Assembly: GCA_018831055.1 (NCBI GenBank)
Contig: JAHJRE010000206.1
Span: forward strand, 1 to 39,153
Length of the DNA: 39,153 nt
From: Bacteroidota bacterium
GTDB lineage: Bacteria > Bacteroidota > Bacteroidia > Bacteroidales > B18-G4
Reading direction: 5' to 3'
Position numbers and translations under genes: made by a program
Notes under the pieces: generated by a model
Seen by the model: the letters and a program-made list of their open reading frames with translations, nothing else
Databases searched by the model: none
Told to the model about the DNA's origin: nothing
Shown here: piece after piece, positions 1 through 37,916 of the stretch
Layout: each line of letters begins with the position of its first letter
Numbering within the stretch: position 1 is the stretch's first letter

Positions 1-98
1 CCCAGTCCCCAGCACCCAGTCCCCAGCACCCAGTCCCCAGTCCCCAGCACCCAGTCCCCAGTCCCCAGCACCCAGTCCCCAGCACCCAGTCCCCAGCA
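1..98. repeat. Heptamer tandem array, CCCAGTC/CCCAGCA type
   Basis: Fourteen consecutive 7-base units fill this stretch without a break. Each unit is either CCCAGTC or CCCAGCA, mixed irregularly. The array starts at the window edge, so its true length is unknown. It ends about 30 bases before the terminator of the HMG-CoA lyase-type gene and does not appear to be coding. The unit, rotated to CCCCAGT, resembles the heptamer class known in cyanobacteria as STRR1. That resemblance is from memory and does not imply common origin. Confidence 0.95.
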
Positions 99-123
99 AC
101 CTTTTATTTCCCTTTCCCGATAC

Positions 124-163
124 CAAAAAAACAAACCCCGGGAAAAATCCCGGGGTTTGTTTT
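124..163 (-). terminator. Strong bidirectional intrinsic terminator
   Basis: A perfect 11-bp inverted repeat (132-142 and 149-159) is built around CCCCGGG/CCCGGGG with a 6-base A-rich loop. It is followed by a T run on either strand (TTTT at 160-163 on the plus strand; A run at 125-131, read as T on the minus strand). It lies about 75 bases past the stop of the minus-strand gene ending at 238 and should end that transcript. It would also stop transcription coming from the repeat side. Confidence 0.9.
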
Positions 164-237
164 AAAAGATGGTTTATAGAATTCTGTATGTAAAAATCCG
201 GCTTCTGATCTCCGGATTTCGCTATTCCCCTTATGCA

Positions 238-1098
238 TTAAGTATGCACTGATTCCAATAGCTCTGCTGATAGTTCCCTTGCTTTTTTGAGTTCCTTTTT
301 GTTCAATTTGCTTGAAATTCCGTTTTGTTCGAGGAAATCCTGGATGCATGCAGTACTAAGATTTCCTATCATTTCATATCCGGTGAACTGGCAGCCTCCC
401 AAGCCGTTAACGGTGCCGTCGAATACCTTGCAGCCACTAATATAGGCAGCTTCCAGTTTGTCGTACCAGCAGTCTTTCTGTGTATGCATGTGTAGCCCAA
501 ATTTAACCAGAGGGAACCCATCTGATAATATTTTGTATACCTCACGTATCTGAGCCGGCTTTGAATGCCCCATGGTATCTGCCAGGGTAATGCGGTGGAC
601 TCCCATATTGTCGAGTTCGTAACACTCACGGATCAGCTTGTCAAGCGACCATTCTTCTTCATATGGATTTCCGAATGCCATGGAAAGATAAACAATGGTT
701 TTTTTATCCCGTTTATCTGCCATATTAAGGATTTCGGCTAAAATAGCCCTTGATTTGTCGAGAGATGAATTGAGATTCAACTCAAGAAATTTTCCTGAAA
801 GAGCGTGTGGGTAAGAAATATAGGATATCTCATCATAATGTACGGCTTCCAGGGCACCTCTGACATTACCGACGAGGGCGGCTAAACGTGTGCCATTGCC
901 TTGTAGATTTAGTTTACGAACCACTTCACCACTGTCTTTTAATTGAGGCACAGCTCTGGGTGAAACAAAGCTTCCAAACTCCAGAATGTCAAATCCGACT
1001 TTTAATAATGAATTCAGGTATTCGACTTTGGAGGCTGTCGGAATGAATTCCATGATACCCTGCATGGCATCACGGGAAGTTTCCACGATCTGTATCAT
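238..1098 (-). CDS. mvaB: Hydroxymethylglutaryl-CoA lyase family protein
   Basis: TIM-barrel acyltransferase/lyase of the HMGL-like family, 286 aa. HMG-CoA lyases split HMG-CoA into acetoacetate and acetyl-CoA, the last step of leucine breakdown, in the cytoplasm. The N-terminal RDAMQG motif carries the catalytic Arg-Asp. A metal-binding HMH lies before the C-terminal third, and the GLGGC loop holds the catalytic Cys at about residue 236. The residue after that Cys is Gln where most family members have Pro. The RDAMQG start and KCD/KxW-type segment after the HxH match the version I know from Flavobacteria and relatives. I chose the ATG at 1098; an in-frame TTG at 1122 is less likely. A good -7 element lies 38 bases upstream and a strong terminator follows. 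The substrate could be another acyl-CoA, because this family is broad. Confidence 0.8.
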   Translation of the reverse strand: MIQIVETSRDAMQGIMEFIPTASKVEYLNSLLKVGFDILEFGSFVSPRAVPQLKDSGEVVRKLNLQGNGTRLAALVGNVRGALEAVHYDEISYISYPHALSGKFLELNLNSSLDKSRAILAEILNMADKRDKKTIVYLSMAFGNPYEEEWSLDKLIRECYELDNMGVHRITLADTMGHSKPAQIREVYKILSDGFPLVKFGLHMHTQKDCWYDKLEAAYISGCKVFDGTVNGLGGCQFTGYEMIGNLSTACIQDFLEQNGISSKLNKKELKKARELSAELLESVHT

Positions 1099-1135
1099 CT
1101 TTCTTGGCTTTTTGATTAACAAGTTTATTTACTTA

Positions 1136-1143
1136 CAAAGGTA
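1136..1143 (-). promoter_or_regulatory. Bacteroidetes -7 element (TACCTTTG) for mvaB
   Basis: On the minus strand this reads TACCTTTG, a perfect match to TAnnTTTG, 38 bases upstream of the chosen start. I see no clean TTTG at the -33 position. A small perfect inverted repeat GTAAC-N5-GTTAC (1141-1155) overlaps the upstream side and could be an operator, though it is short enough to be chance. Confidence 0.6.
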
Positions 1144-1291
1144 ACGGAATGTTACGCGAAATGGTGCTAAAAATGCAGGAAATCAACCGTTAAGATTCAA
1201 TTTTCAGTGTATTATGTCGCCCCCTACGTATTTTCCTCAAATTGTGTATACCAGAATTCTGATGCACTTGTGTGGGGAGCACCGAAGAGGA

Positions 1292-4200
1292 TTATTGGAT
1301 GATTATTTTACGAGTAGCGATACCCTGCTTAGTGGTTATTTGGACCAGAAAAATTCCTCCGGGTAAATGAGAAGTACTGATCCTTGTGCTCTTTGTTAAA
1401 TCGTTGCTGTGGTATATAATTTGGCCCACCGGGCTGAATAGTTTTATGAAGAGGATATCTTCTTCCGACCGGATCATCAGATAATCATCAGCAGGATTTG
1501 GGAATATGAACAATCCATCATCATTTTTTTCTTCTATCCCAACAGGAACATTCACAGCTAACGTGTCGCTGTAATACGATTCGCAATCCTCATAAGTGGC
1601 CGTAACATTAATGTCAAATTCCCCGCCCATCTGTGGAACCCAGTAATAAAAAGTGTCTGTAGTATATTCGAGGAAAGCTTGATCAATGTATACGTTGTAA
1701 CCCAGTAATTCACGGTTTTGTGAATAATCCGGTGCATGCCATGTAAGCAGGTAGTCGTGCCAGGAAATCTCCTCAGATTCCAAATTGTATGGAGCCGGGC
1801 AGAGCCTGTATACCTTAATGTTGTCGATTAACCAGGATGCGATGTTGGCAGAAGATATCCCGCTACAGGAAAACTGTATCTGGAACAGATCAACACCCCA
1901 TGCACAAGTACTGATGTTATATTTCCGGTGCAACCAGCCGAAACTTCCCTCGGAGTTATCAAAAGTAGTAATGGTATCCCATCCCTCTCCACACCATGCC
2001 CTAACGGTCAATTTCTCCTGTCCTGTCGGATTTAAGTCATCCAGTCTGATGTCAAATTCAAACCAGATTTCCCCATCAATGTATGGTTGGTTTACGCCCA
2101 GACAATTAATATACCAGGAAGTGAGAGATGTTGAGTAATTAGAAAGTGCAGGTTCGCCTGTGAATTTTGCAGCCGGGGCAGGATTCCCTCCGTTTCCGTC
2201 AATAGTCCAGTTGGTATCATGATACCACTCATTCAACTCGAAAGTGCCGGATGCCCAGGGTTCATTAAAGGGTAATACAAAATTTGAGTTGTTATAGAGA
2301 AATATTGGGCCATCCATGGCGGATTCCCCGGTGTCGCCAGGTTGGCCATACGGCCCCAAATCGTATAAAGCGCTTACATCATACCTGTACAAACCGGGGA
2401 TCAATCCGAAATCGAAATATTCTGCTGTGGTATCGCCTGGATTATGTTCTATAAAATCATATTCCTCATTGTCCCGGTGTATATTATACCCCAATAGGTT
2501 TGCAGGTACAATTCCGCCCTGTCCGGGATAGTACGGCCATGTAGTCAGTTCAAGCCCAAAGATCCATTCATCCTGTAAGACTCCCCCAATGGTCCAGAAA
2601 TCTCCTGACATCCAGTGTGTGAACAAGCCACCCGATGGAGCCGACCCAGTTCCAAGGATACTGTAAACATCAATGTTGAAGATTTCCTGACCTGATGTGA
2701 GGTCGATCTGCACCAGATTGGCTTCAGCACCATCACTGGTAAATCCCCAGAGGACGGGAGTCCCGAAGGTATGATTGTCGTACGCAAAACCAGTATAATT
2801 ATTGAAGGTACCTGTTTGAAAGCTTTGCAGCAAATTCCCCTGCTTATCGAATAGCACGATATCTGTGTTCCAGTTATAAGTCCACAACCCATCCTGATCA
2901 TCATCGTAAGCAATGGCCCGTATGTTGACCGGAGCTATGAATGTCCTGACAAGTGTTGCCGAATTGAAATCCATGACATAGCAGGTATTACCACCGTCAC
3001 CTCCGTACATCCATCCCTCATCAGGATCATAGGCCAGGTCTTTCAGCCCGCTAACTCCCGGAATGGAAAACCCAAATAGAAAAGTCCCGTCTTCTTCATA
3101 TTTATTGATCAGATTTCCGGTCGACTGGCTCGTATAAATGAAATTCCCGTCCGTTTCGATTCCGTATTCCGGGCTTACTCCTGTAACCGGATAGAGGAAG
3201 CGGACATCCCACATGTCCCTGCTTTTGCTTGTTGTATCCGGTATCCTGGGTGCATCCCACCAGATATGAATGATATCATCCAATGGCTCTCCTTCCAGAT
3301 TTTCCGGTTTGGCCAGATAGCCGGAAGTGAACTCAACATCAATGGTGTCACTGTTTCCTGTGGTGTATGCTGCATAGATGCCGGCAATATGTTCTGTGCC
3401 ATAATCCATGTAAGGTAGTTGCACTGATGTCATATTGCCTGATTCGATCATAGTATCATCCAGGAATATAAAGTAGCTCAGAATCTCCCTGCTGCATTCC
3501 CTAAGGAAAGGAGGATCCCATGACATTACCGAGATCTGTGTATCAACCGCTACATTCACCGGCGCAAGGTACAACTCATCCATCACCCAGTTGAAAACCG
3601 TGTCGCTGAAAACAGGAACATTCAGGACTGAAATACTGTCATACCCGGGTTTATACGCATAAATATCATAATGGCCATGGTAAACCGAATCTTCTGTTGC
3701 AGAGCCGTCCGGACCGGTAAACAAAGTGTAATCCGAATTCATGCAGTCCAGAGAATACAGATCAATCCGTACGTTGTTGATGGGATCCCCATTGATCATT
3801 TCCATGTTGAAGGTGATCGGGGATGTGGTGTTATTGCCGGTAAGATTGGAAAAGAACCATCCTGAAGAACCGGACGACTGATAAACGATTTGAATTGCAT
3901 ATCTTAAAAATCCGCCGGTTTGTCCGTATAAAATATCAGTGAATTCATTTTCTGTAGTTGATCCTATTACGGTGAGGGTTCCGGTGAGGGGGTCGCAGGA
4001 TTGCATATCTTCGACCCAGGCAACTGAATAATAAGAAATGCCGGGATCTTCAGAAACAAAGGCACGTATCATCAAATCCTGATAAACATTTAATTGCCAG
4101 TCGTTACCCTGTAGTCTGCAATAACCATAATTGTAGGTAGGACCTGAATAATCCACACCAAGAGGAGGGGAGTTGGGTACATTTGATAGCTGGCGCATGG

Positions 4201-4771
4201 AAAGGTAAAAATTCCCGGCGCTGATCAGTGCATTTAATCCCCAAAACTCAACCCATCCATAATTGTTTACGGTAACTGTAACGGAATCCAGAGCTGTACC
4301 GGGCATTTCCCCGGGGCCGTCATCATCATACACGATCATCCTGAAATCAGTGCCAAACCAGTTGCCTGCCGGGAAACTTCCGTCACCGACATAAATCATT
4401 CCTCCGCTAACAAGAGTAGGAGAACCTCCTGTATTAAACTTTACCGCATTTTCATTGCCGGCATTAGCCCACACAATAAGCTCTTCTGCAGAGCCGTCGT
4501 CAAATTTATATTCCTCATAGCTTCCCGGAATGAAATCCCATTTTATATAACATTGGCCAGATGATGGAGTAGCTGCTACAATTAAAGAGTCTTCGCCGGT
4601 TTGAAGAGGAGAGGGGTTAGGGGATAGGGATTGGGGATTAGGGATTAGGGGTTGGGGCTTGGGGATTAGGGATTGGTGGTTAAGGGGTGAGGGGGTGATA
4701 ATATCCTGGGAAAAATGTAAAAGGGGCGTGACCAACAGTATGACGATAAGAAAGCTTCTGGAATGAAACAT
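1292..4771 (-). CDS. Large secreted T9SS type A cargo protein with coding heptamer tract
   Basis: 1159-aa secreted protein of unknown function. Residues 1-22 form a signal peptide ending near HFSQ. Residues 27-57 are a proline-rich linker with a 7-residue period (LIPKPQP, LIPNPQS, LSPNPSP) encoded by a heptamer DNA repeat. The middle holds beta-sandwich and fibronectin-III-like segments, and about residues 540-760 look like a WD/NHL-type propeller (repeated YDDD, FDKQGN and DLTSGQ elements). The last 85 residues are a T9SS type A sorting domain with FPNPADDYL, SPVGQIIY and LPGGIFLVQI, which directs outer-membrane translocation and surface attachment. No catalytic motif was recognised. It lies downstream of, and in the same direction as, another T9SS cargo gene, separated by a long hairpin. 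A surface adhesin or secreted polymer-binding role is possible but unproven. Confidence 0.85.
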   Translation of the reverse strand: MFHSRSFLIVILLVTPLLHFSQDIITPSPLNHQSLIPKPQPLIPNPQSLSPNPSPLQTGEDSLIVAATPSSGQCYIKWDFIPGSYEEYKFDDGSAEELIVWANAGNENAVKFNTGGSPTLVSGGMIYVGDGSFPAGNWFGTDFRMIVYDDDGPGEMPGTALDSVTVTVNNYGWVEFWGLNALISAGNFYLSMRQLSNVPNSPPLGVDYSGPTYNYGYCRLQGNDWQLNVYQDLMIRAFVSEDPGISYYSVAWVEDMQSCDPLTGTLTVIGSTTENEFTDILYGQTGGFLRYAIQIVYQSSGSSGWFFSNLTGNNTTSPITFNMEMINGDPINNVRIDLYSLDCMNSDYTLFTGPDGSATEDSVYHGHYDIYAYKPGYDSISVLNVPVFSDTVFNWVMDELYLAPVNVAVDTQISVMSWDPPFLRECSREILSYFIFLDDTMIESGNMTSVQLPYMDYGTEHIAGIYAAYTTGNSDTIDVEFTSGYLAKPENLEGEPLDDIIHIWWDAPRIPDTTSKSRDMWDVRFLYPVTGVSPEYGIETDGNFIYTSQSTGNLINKYEEDGTFLFGFSIPGVSGLKDLAYDPDEGWMYGGDGGNTCYVMDFNSATLVRTFIAPVNIRAIAYDDDQDGLWTYNWNTDIVLFDKQGNLLQSFQTGTFNNYTGFAYDNHTFGTPVLWGFTSDGAEANLVQIDLTSGQEIFNIDVYSILGTGSAPSGGLFTHWMSGDFWTIGGVLQDEWIFGLELTTWPYYPGQGGIVPANLLGYNIHRDNEEYDFIEHNPGDTTAEYFDFGLIPGLYRYDVSALYDLGPYGQPGDTGESAMDGPIFLYNNSNFVLPFNEPWASGTFELNEWYHDTNWTIDGNGGNPAPAAKFTGEPALSNYSTSLTSWYINCLGVNQPYIDGEIWFEFDIRLDDLNPTGQEKLTVRAWCGEGWDTITTFDNSEGSFGWLHRKYNISTCAWGVDLFQIQFSCSGISSANIASWLIDNIKVYRLCPAPYNLESEEISWHDYLLTWHAPDYSQNRELLGYNVYIDQAFLEYTTDTFYYWVPQMGGEFDINVTATYEDCESYYSDTLAVNVPVGIEEKNDDGLFIFPNPADDYLMIRSEEDILFIKLFSPVGQIIYHSNDLTKSTRISTSHLPGGIFLVQITTKQGIATRKIIIQ
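4613..4689. repeat. Heptamer array inside a coding region (GGGATTA type)
   Basis: Eleven tandem heptamers in register on the plus strand: GGGGTTA, GGGGATA, GGGATTG, GGGATTA (twice), GGGGTTG, GGGCTTG, GGGATTA, GGGATTG, GTGGTTA, AGGGGTG. The complementary strand codes for a proline-rich linker just behind the signal peptide of the 1159-aa T9SS protein. Three heptamers make seven codons, so the peptide also repeats every seven residues. Read on the coding strand the units (CCCAATC, CCCTAAT) are close to the CCCAGTC units at 1-98. The runs of G could form quadruplexes. Confidence 0.93.
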
Positions 4772-4853: not shown

Positions 4854-4926
4854 ACCACAATAGTCACAATAGCTCACAATAGATGAATGGAGAAATTCTA
4901 CTGTGAACTATTGTGACTATTGTGGT
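4854..4926. repeat. 29-bp near-perfect inverted repeat (long hairpin)
   Basis: Arms 4854-4882 and 4898-4926 pair over 29 bp with two mismatches around a 15-base loop. Each arm is itself built from three copies of CACAATAG spaced 9-10 bases apart. It lies between two minus-strand T9SS genes, just past the stop of the upstream one. There is no T run on either side, so it is not a normal intrinsic terminator. It could stabilise mRNA ends, block read-through or be a mobile palindromic repeat of the REP/BIME kind. Confidence 0.9.
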
Positions 4927-36226: not shown

Positions 36227-36296
36227 GTTGCAGGCTACATGCTACATGTTGCAAGTTGCAAGTTACAAGTTACAGGTTGTAACCTGTAACCTGCAG
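36227..36296. repeat. Ten-unit degenerate heptamer array with strand switch
   Basis: Units in order: GTTGCAG, GCTACAT, GCTACAT, GTTGCAA, GTTGCAA, GTTACAA, GTTACAG, GTTGTAA, CCTGTAA, CCTGCAG. The register stays at 7 bases throughout while the sequence drifts. Near the end the units turn into the reverse complement of the earlier ones (GTTACAG to CCTGTAA), making a perfect 10-bp inverted repeat at 36269-36278 and 36281-36290. It lies between the DUF4301 gene end and the response regulator start. GTTACAA is shared with the tract at 7868-7953. Confidence 0.92.
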
Positions 36297-36342
36297 CATG
36301 AAACTATTTGTTCATCTATCCTGATGCACACATCAATAACTT

Positions 36343-36370
36343 ATAACTCATAACTCATAACTCATAACTC
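36343..36370. repeat. ATAACTC heptamer array, touching a stop codon
   Basis: Four perfect consecutive copies of ATAACTC, followed by AC. On the minus strand the end of the array supplies the first two bases of the stop codon TGA (36369-36371) of the DUF4301 gene. It is about 46 bases from the array at 36227-36296 and has a different unit but the same 7-base length. Confidence 0.93.
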
Positions 36371-37916
36371 ACACGTGTTGTTCTCTCAGCAGGTCGTTGA
36401 TCGTTTTAACGGGGTTAAAGGTGATAATGGGCACTTCCACAAAAATGGTATTCCAATCGGCCATGGCTCCATTCCAGAGGCCAGGTAGTTCCAGGGCTTT
36501 TAATTCCTTACCGTCTTTCGATTTATAGGAGATAAAACCGGTATTGGGGTCGATATAATTTTTAAGATTGAAGTGTTTGCCCTCGAAGTTATTTGTGGCA
36601 CAAACAAGATCAACGGGATTAAAATGAGTTGAGGCTCTCAGAACATCCATCTGTAAGGGGTTGGCACTGTCAATCTGAGAGGCTTCAACGATTTGCAGTG
36701 TTTTTTCCCCTTTGTCGTTGATCACCCAGAAAGGACCACCTCCCGGCTCTCCTTCGTTTTTAACCATACCGCACACCCGGATGGGGCGGTTTAGTTTGCT
36801 TTCTATGTAGGTGAACTGTTTTCCGATGTCAAGATCGTTAAAGTCTTCCGGAAAATGTATCATGAGTTCATTTTCCATAAAGGCTTTGATGTCTTCAATA
36901 TCGTGCTCATTAAACTGCCCTTTGTCGATCCTTCTCAGATGATCGAAGACCTTTTCCTGTATTTCCAAAAGAATACCGGCCAGTAATTTTTTATATCGGT
37001 AGGTTTCCTGTTTTAATCGGTCTGGAACAATGTTGTCAATATTCTTGATGAAAATTATATCGGCATGGATACTATTCAGGTTTTCGATCAGCGCTCCGTG
37101 GCCTCCCGGACGGAAAACGATCTCCCCATTACGGTCCCTGAAAGGCTGATTGTTTAGGTCGACTGCCAGTGTGTCGGTGGATTCCTTTTGAGTGCTGAAT
37201 TCGATATGGTATTCTACTCCAAATTGTTTCTCATACCTGAGCTTTACCCTGTCGGCTGTTTCCCGGAAAGCATCCATATGTTCCGGAGAAACAGTAAAAT
37301 GAATGTATACCTTATTATTATCATTACGGGCGTAAAACGCTCCCTCAACCATGTGTTCCTCCAAAGCCATGCGATTACCATCGGAATAACGGTGAAACCT
37401 GAGAAGACCCTTCGGCAGACTGCCATAGTTCATTCCATGTTCAAAAAGGATGTGGTGCAGGATGGTTTTGTAATCTTTTTTCCGAATGAGATCTTCAACG
37501 CTTAGTTTGTTTTCCTCCAGGATGGCAGATAAATGCTCGTGAAAAGCAAATTGTCTGAGATTGCTCAGGAAATGGAAGGCTGAATTGAAGGATTGGTCAC
37601 TTTCCAGCTTTCTGAGCATATTTTCTTCACTTTCCGATTCCAGGAGTTCGTAAAGATGTTTGAACATTCGTGTGGCTGCGCCGGAGGCAGGTACAAATTT
37701 AACCAGTTTCTTGCCATTTACGTGATTCTCAAAAAGACGGATGTATTTATCTGTCTCTTCTTCTTCGTAAACTTTAATACCATGACCGGGTATCGCGGGC
37801 GCATAAAGGGTAATAAAGGGGAAACCATGATTAAACTGCCTTATTTGCTTTTCAATCTGCTGCTTGCTGATGCCTTTCTTTTCAAATAACGCCAGATCCT
37901 GTGCTGAAAAATCCAT
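36369..37916 (-). CDS. DUF4301 family protein, nucleotidyltransferase-like
   Basis: 515-aa cytoplasmic protein of unknown function, found mainly in Bacteroidetes. VPASGAATRMF near residue 76 resembles the LxxGxGTR nucleotide-binding loop of sugar-nucleotide pyrophosphorylases. RPGGHGALIENLN near residue 278 resembles the glycine-histidine loop of UDP-sugar pyrophosphorylases. A possible sugar-phosphate binding segment (KNEGEPGGGPFWV) lies near 395. No signal peptide is present. I suggest a nucleotidyltransferase-like enzyme, as inference from motifs only. The ATG at 37916 follows a good -7 element by 19 bases. The stop codon is partly made by the ATAACTC repeat. Confidence 0.85.
   Translation of the reverse strand: MDFSAQDLALFEKKGISKQQIEKQIRQFNHGFPFITLYAPAIPGHGIKVYEEEETDKYIRLFENHVNGKKLVKFVPASGAATRMFKHLYELLESESEENMLRKLESDQSFNSAFHFLSNLRQFAFHEHLSAILEENKLSVEDLIRKKDYKTILHHILFEHGMNYGSLPKGLLRFHRYSDGNRMALEEHMVEGAFYARNDNNKVYIHFTVSPEHMDAFRETADRVKLRYEKQFGVEYHIEFSTQKESTDTLAVDLNNQPFRDRNGEIVFRPGGHGALIENLNSIHADIIFIKNIDNIVPDRLKQETYRYKKLLAGILLEIQEKVFDHLRRIDKGQFNEHDIEDIKAFMENELMIHFPEDFNDLDIGKQFTYIESKLNRPIRVCGMVKNEGEPGGGPFWVINDKGEKTLQIVEASQIDSANPLQMDVLRASTHFNPVDLVCATNNFEGKHFNLKNYIDPNTGFISYKSKDGKELKALELPGLWNGAMADWNTIFVEVPIITFNPVKTINDLLREQHV

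Follow-up and report, generated by a model that had tools for sequence, protein, structure and literature searches.

A degenerate TAATCCC-type heptamer array apparently captured as a coding linker behind the signal peptide of a Bacteroidales T9SS cargo protein

Non-triplet repeats close to the signal peptide of a surface protein are familiar from the leader of the Neisseria opa genes, where they are pure and slip often. Heptamer repeats have been described in other bacteria. Those of Nostoc and Xanthomonas, with the units GGGGA(C/T)T and GGGAATC, are dispersed and mostly intergenic, with an intragenic share of about a third in Anabaena and 7–11% in Xanthomonas; they prefer the antisense strand at most 50 bp upstream of ORFs, and form G-quadruplexes (G4s) in vitro (Rehm et al., 2015, PMC4692102). 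TAACTGA repeats are found in Beggiatoaceae, Cyanobacteria and Bacteroidetes, some of them inside ORFs and mostly near protein ends, from which capture at protein peripheries was proposed, and the stop-bearing orientation was argued to limit coding capture (MacGregor, 2015, PMC4679880). Finally, the Rickettsia palindromic elements are repetitive DNA lying in frame in unrelated genes and translated with them (review PMC10969869). Intragenic heptamer repeats and the in-frame capture of repeats are already known, and the locus described here adds another case. It suggests concretely how simple repeats outside genes can turn into new protein sequence: an array that has stops in its pure form would be tolerated between domains once variants clear one frame.

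The window, that is the whole stretch of DNA analysed, is a contig of 39,153 nucleotides from a member of the Bacteroidales (GCA_018831055.1). Its array lies about 72 nt inside a long ORF (Table 1) and has a core of nine units (63 nt, or 21 codons) that read, on the minus strand, CAATCCC, TAATCCC, CAAGCCC, CAACCCC, TAATCCC, TAATCCC, CAATCCC, TATCCCC and TAACCCC. Identity within the core is 0.80, 0.76, 0.83 and 0.86 at lags of 7, 14, 21 and 28 nt, the first of these values being reached by none of 100,000 shuffles, and TRF scored the array at periods 7, 14, 21 and 28. A weaker 7-nt periodicity extends to both sides, with a lag-7 identity of 0.66 over the whole linker-coding stretch. Rfam gave no match. 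By its DNA unit it belongs to a lineage-specific heptanucleotide tandem-repeat family (TAATCCC/TAACCCC/TAAACCC/CAATCCC class), having both the 7-nt periodicity and dispersed copies of the same class; this family lies mostly between genes (a tendency rather than a property of every copy), and the copy inside the ORF is an exception.

With the Nostoc and Xanthomonas repeats it shares a heptamer unit, runs of G on one strand and dispersed copies. The array is however from another lineage and is analysed here as coding sequence, whereas the relevant part of that paper maps intragenic copies and does not treat a role as protein linker (PMC4692102). The TAACTGA repeats differ in their unit, and the present array is of the stop-bearing type, open through CAA variants. 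Contrary to the Rickettsia elements, which are palindromic, about 150 bp long and encode a conserved peptide of their own, it is a simple tandem repeat and shows no inverted-repeat element of conserved sequence. With the opa repeats it shares a non-triplet unit and the vicinity of a signal peptide, but those are pure and slipping while the array is degenerate.

Table 1. Features of the array, its host gene and other coding arrays.
Feature	Position	Strand	Evidence or remark
T9SS cargo protein gene, 1159 aa (P0001)	1292..4771	-	uninterrupted ORF; Por_Secre_tail PF18962 / TIGR04183 at C-terminus
Signal-peptide-like N-terminus, residues 1-22, MFHSRSFLIVILLVTPLLHFSQ	4706..4771	-	by eye: basic n-region, hydrophobic core, HFS|Q
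Array-encoded proline-rich linker, codons 25-58, ITPSPLNHQSLIPKPQPLIPNPQSLSPNPSPLQT	4598..4699	-	lag-7 identity, low-pLDDT model
Nine-unit heptamer core	4613..4675	-	lag identities, TRF
G-rich strand of array (gene template strand), predicted G-quadruplex motif	4613..4671	+	G3+ runs, loops 1-7
First beta-rich region, residues ~63-421	3509..4585	-	homology to internal regions of long T9SS paralogs; modelled strands
T9SS type A C-terminal sorting domain, residues 1089-1158	1298..1507	-	PF18962 E=5.8e-10, TIGR04183 E=1.4e-10
PurL, Caldilineaceae MAG (L153)	1-2337		arrays in hinge between conserved modules
Histidine kinase, Scytonema (L204)			array after HATPase_c, before apparent receiver
Oxidoreductase, Anaerolineae (L222)			array just before POR domain
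M14 peptidase, WOR-3 (L174)			array downstream of M14 domain, near C-terminus

The initial annotation, made from the sequence alone, had placed the heptamers in frame directly after the signal peptide of a T9SS cargo protein, and this is what the intact ORF displays; the translation agrees too with the peptide given there (LIPKPQP, LIPNPQS, LSPNPSP). The putative Sec signal peptide looks textbook-like when judged by eye, and the C-terminal sorting domain of a type A cargo is recognized above cut-off by both Pfam and NCBIfam. Between the signal-peptide-like N-terminus and the first domain, the linker is rich in Pro, Gln, Asn and Ser and has a periodicity of seven residues. An AlphaFold2 model gives residues 1–60 no secondary structure and a pLDDT below 50, which is weak evidence of disorder because no homologs align there, and its strands start at residue 63. 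A fold search with this model (mean pLDDT 70, pTM 0.45) returned no convincing whole-domain match, the top hits having a query TM-score of 0.2 or less. It is probable, at roughly three chances in four, that an array of the heptamer family was captured in frame between the Sec signal peptide and the first beta-domain, and that its translation yields a flexible linker of Pro, Asn, Gln and Ser.

Which came first, the DNA repeat or the peptide? Secreted proteins commonly have proline-rich linkers, and with this background one could imagine that a proline-rich heptad linker was selected, the repetition of the DNA being a mere consequence. A 7-residue peptide repeat requires only a 21-nt period in the DNA, and that is all such a history predicts. 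When the peptide was back-translated 20,000 times into synonymous codons, following local codon usage, identity reached at most 0.68, 0.69 and 0.71 at lags 7, 14 and 28, vs. 0.80, 0.76 and 0.86 in the array, and not one back-translation attained the observed values. As these values exceed those of all back-translations, the DNA repeat preceded the peptide. A peptide-first origin, already contradicted by this test, is scarcely credible, the more so as the linker peptide is absent from all homologs found. That the DNA repeat came first and was then captured as a coding linker is well supported, and the initial annotation was right on this point; the same units also make up non-coding arrays of the genome. 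Distant orthologs with the same linker in unrelated codons, named at the outset as the result that would speak for the peptide, did not turn up: of 393 genomes of the order, 24 have homologs, and no match extends into the core.

A pure TAATCCC array carries TAA once per 21 nt in all frames, so that the expected stop in every frame within three copies is confirmed. In the captured array, the three in-frame TAA positions of the core are CAA instead, and the claim that variants keep the frame open holds good for these positions. The selection after insertion that had been read into them is not shown: when the nine units were permuted, the array's frame was open in 11.9% of orders and some frame was open in 36%, and an array within an intact ORF is open by survivorship. 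If the units are taken instead from other arrays of the genome, an open frame has a chance of 0.08%. C-first (CAA-type) units account for 4 of 7 in the array vs. 9 of 90 in other arrays of the genome (Fisher p = 0.006, the units within an array not being independent), and other C-rich arrays exist (C168, C225 and C226). The open-frame figures cannot separate an array that was open beforehand from later selection, because an array sitting in an intact gene must be open.

A non-triplet unit within the 5′ part of a gene whose product is a predicted surface protein brings to mind a phase-variation (contingency) element, in which slippage by one unit would shift the frame after the signal peptide and switch the surface protein off or on. 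The protein is indeed truncated at 46–60 residues when one or two units are removed or added. Such an element is nonetheless improbable here. The array is degenerate: exact TAATCCC copies follow one another at most twice (4634-4647), as the initial annotation had also remarked, and since exact tandem repetition extends over 17 nt (about 2.4 units) at most, frequent slippage is unlikely. The long, pure, slippage-prone tract of a phase-variable locus is missing, and the longer and purer arrays of the genome are mostly non-coding. Loss of a tested 21-nt block keeps the frame open, and addition of three pure units brings in a stop.

Elsewhere in the genome, 14 places have arrays of the TAATCCC/CAATCCC class, built from the same variants of the unit. 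They are longer, purer and mostly non-coding, their frames being short or stopped, and when the genome was searched with the array peptide, no second array of this kind was crossed by a long open frame. Period 7 is dominant among tandem arrays in the sampled part of the genome, with 17 strict period-7 arrays vs. two of period 8 once loci L051–L054 are set aside; the census had taken in these loci, picked for their arrays, as well as some contigs masked as N. Heptamer arrays probably break assembly, because 3 of 39 sampled contig starts lie inside arrays; the genome is a draft in 342 contigs, and repeats are liable to assembly errors. Of 295 genomes of the order, 143 matched the array peptide, nearly always in frames that are short or interrupted, and the coding location of such arrays is therefore exceptional in this order. 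Those long frames of this search that were checked turned out to be unrelated repeats or arrays that precede a start codon; three long open frames considered as coding captures (G239:C27, G047:C288 and G228:C2) were rejected, because a plausible start codon follows directly after the array. A search with the peptide of the stop-free CCCAGTC repeat likewise gave almost only short frames, and a single one of 470 aa (G103:C343).

No array of the class was found in two congeners or in five other members of the family, whereas another member has some. This distribution bears on whether the array might be kept for an effect at the nucleic-acid level near the 5′ end of the gene, through a G-quadruplex on the template strand, translation being incidental. 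The antisense strand does carry a predicted motif of this kind, and the Xanthomonas and Nostoc repeats favour antisense sites upstream of ORFs and form G4s in vitro (PMC4692102). The present array, however, is not upstream of the ORF but some 72 nt within it, and the congeners live entirely without such arrays, which would make a role of this sort very unlikely.

A close ortholog of the host protein was not found in GTDB r220, in 60 relatives or in 393 genomes of the order. Homologous matches in the order begin at residue 57–82 (at about residue 57–90 in most relatives), and taken together the homology to other proteins sets in at about residue 60–75. Nearly all homologs inspected are longer proteins that carry the first domain at an internal position, with some 115 to more than 1000 residues ahead of it; this preceding stretch resembles, by eye, a carboxypeptidase-regulatory domain. 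The gene could be chimeric, or part of a longer paralog in decay that was fused to a signal peptide where the array lies, with a product that does not function, and the internal place of the domain and the want of a close ortholog are in keeping with this. The 1159-aa frame is however intact and ends in a good sorting domain, and one homolog of 925 aa (L349, 1105-3882, minus strand) has the same short layout, so that a non-functional chimera is unlikely. L349 is the sole homolog with signal peptide, domain and sorting region in this arrangement. Its spacer is about 20 residues shorter and non-repetitive (lag-7 identity 0.20), which accords, for a homolog that is not a close ortholog, with the expectation that relatives would lack the linker. 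An octamer array (GAACAGGC type, lag-8 identity 0.66) is translated in the C-terminal T9SS sorting region of L349.

How might the captured linker have come about? The array may have arisen by slippage in place, by copying in, or when a signal peptide was joined to a longer-paralog fragment at the array. Capture would have succeeded as the array already carried, or soon gained, CAA for TAA at the three in-frame positions, and its position at a domain boundary, behind the signal peptide, would make the site tolerant. The linker would then act as a spacer, neutral or of slight use, and would have no specific function.

The pattern with CAA at every third unit recurs in at least 120 stretches from many phyla, although it is itself a pattern that favours open frames. 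Among the array matches, 28 ORFs reach 150 aa or more, several of them spurious or touching arrays only at their ends; Pfam left two of six array ORFs without a family. Four in-frame arrays accompany recognizable domains: PurL, a histidine kinase, an oxidoreductase and an M14 peptidase (Table 1). In the PurL hinge the arrays run in both orientations and partly as 21-nt higher-order repeats. In PurL relatives at 55–79% identity, the corresponding hinge is mostly shorter and is not made of arrays, and the alignment with a solved PurL (3viu) has gaps there. It is tempting, and so far tentative, to see in heptamer arrays a recurrent source of inter-domain linkers across phyla, which would open through in-phase TAA-to-CAA changes or 21-nt repeats, settle at domain boundaries even in PurL, and then grow only in 21-nt steps; their recurrence at domain boundaries across phyla is anecdotal. 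The Caldilineaceae PurL offers a hinge with and without array in a housekeeping enzyme, and the rate and limits of capture would be measurable across genomes.

Other repeats were seen in passing. The end of the contig (1-98) is a CCCAGTC/CCCAGCA heptamer array, and two more heptamer arrays, of the GTTGCAA/GTTACAG and ATAACTC types, lie between ORFs at 36229-36378. At L084 (6900-7200), a repeated block of about 16 bp (CCCCTCGACTTCGCTC / CCCCTCGGCTTCGCTC) adjoins a heptamer array. Between the host gene and a second T9SS gene, an inverted repeat spans 4854-4926 (CACAATAGTCACAATAG ... CTATTGTGACTATTGTGG), with related copies on about 12 contigs and 39 matches genome-wide.
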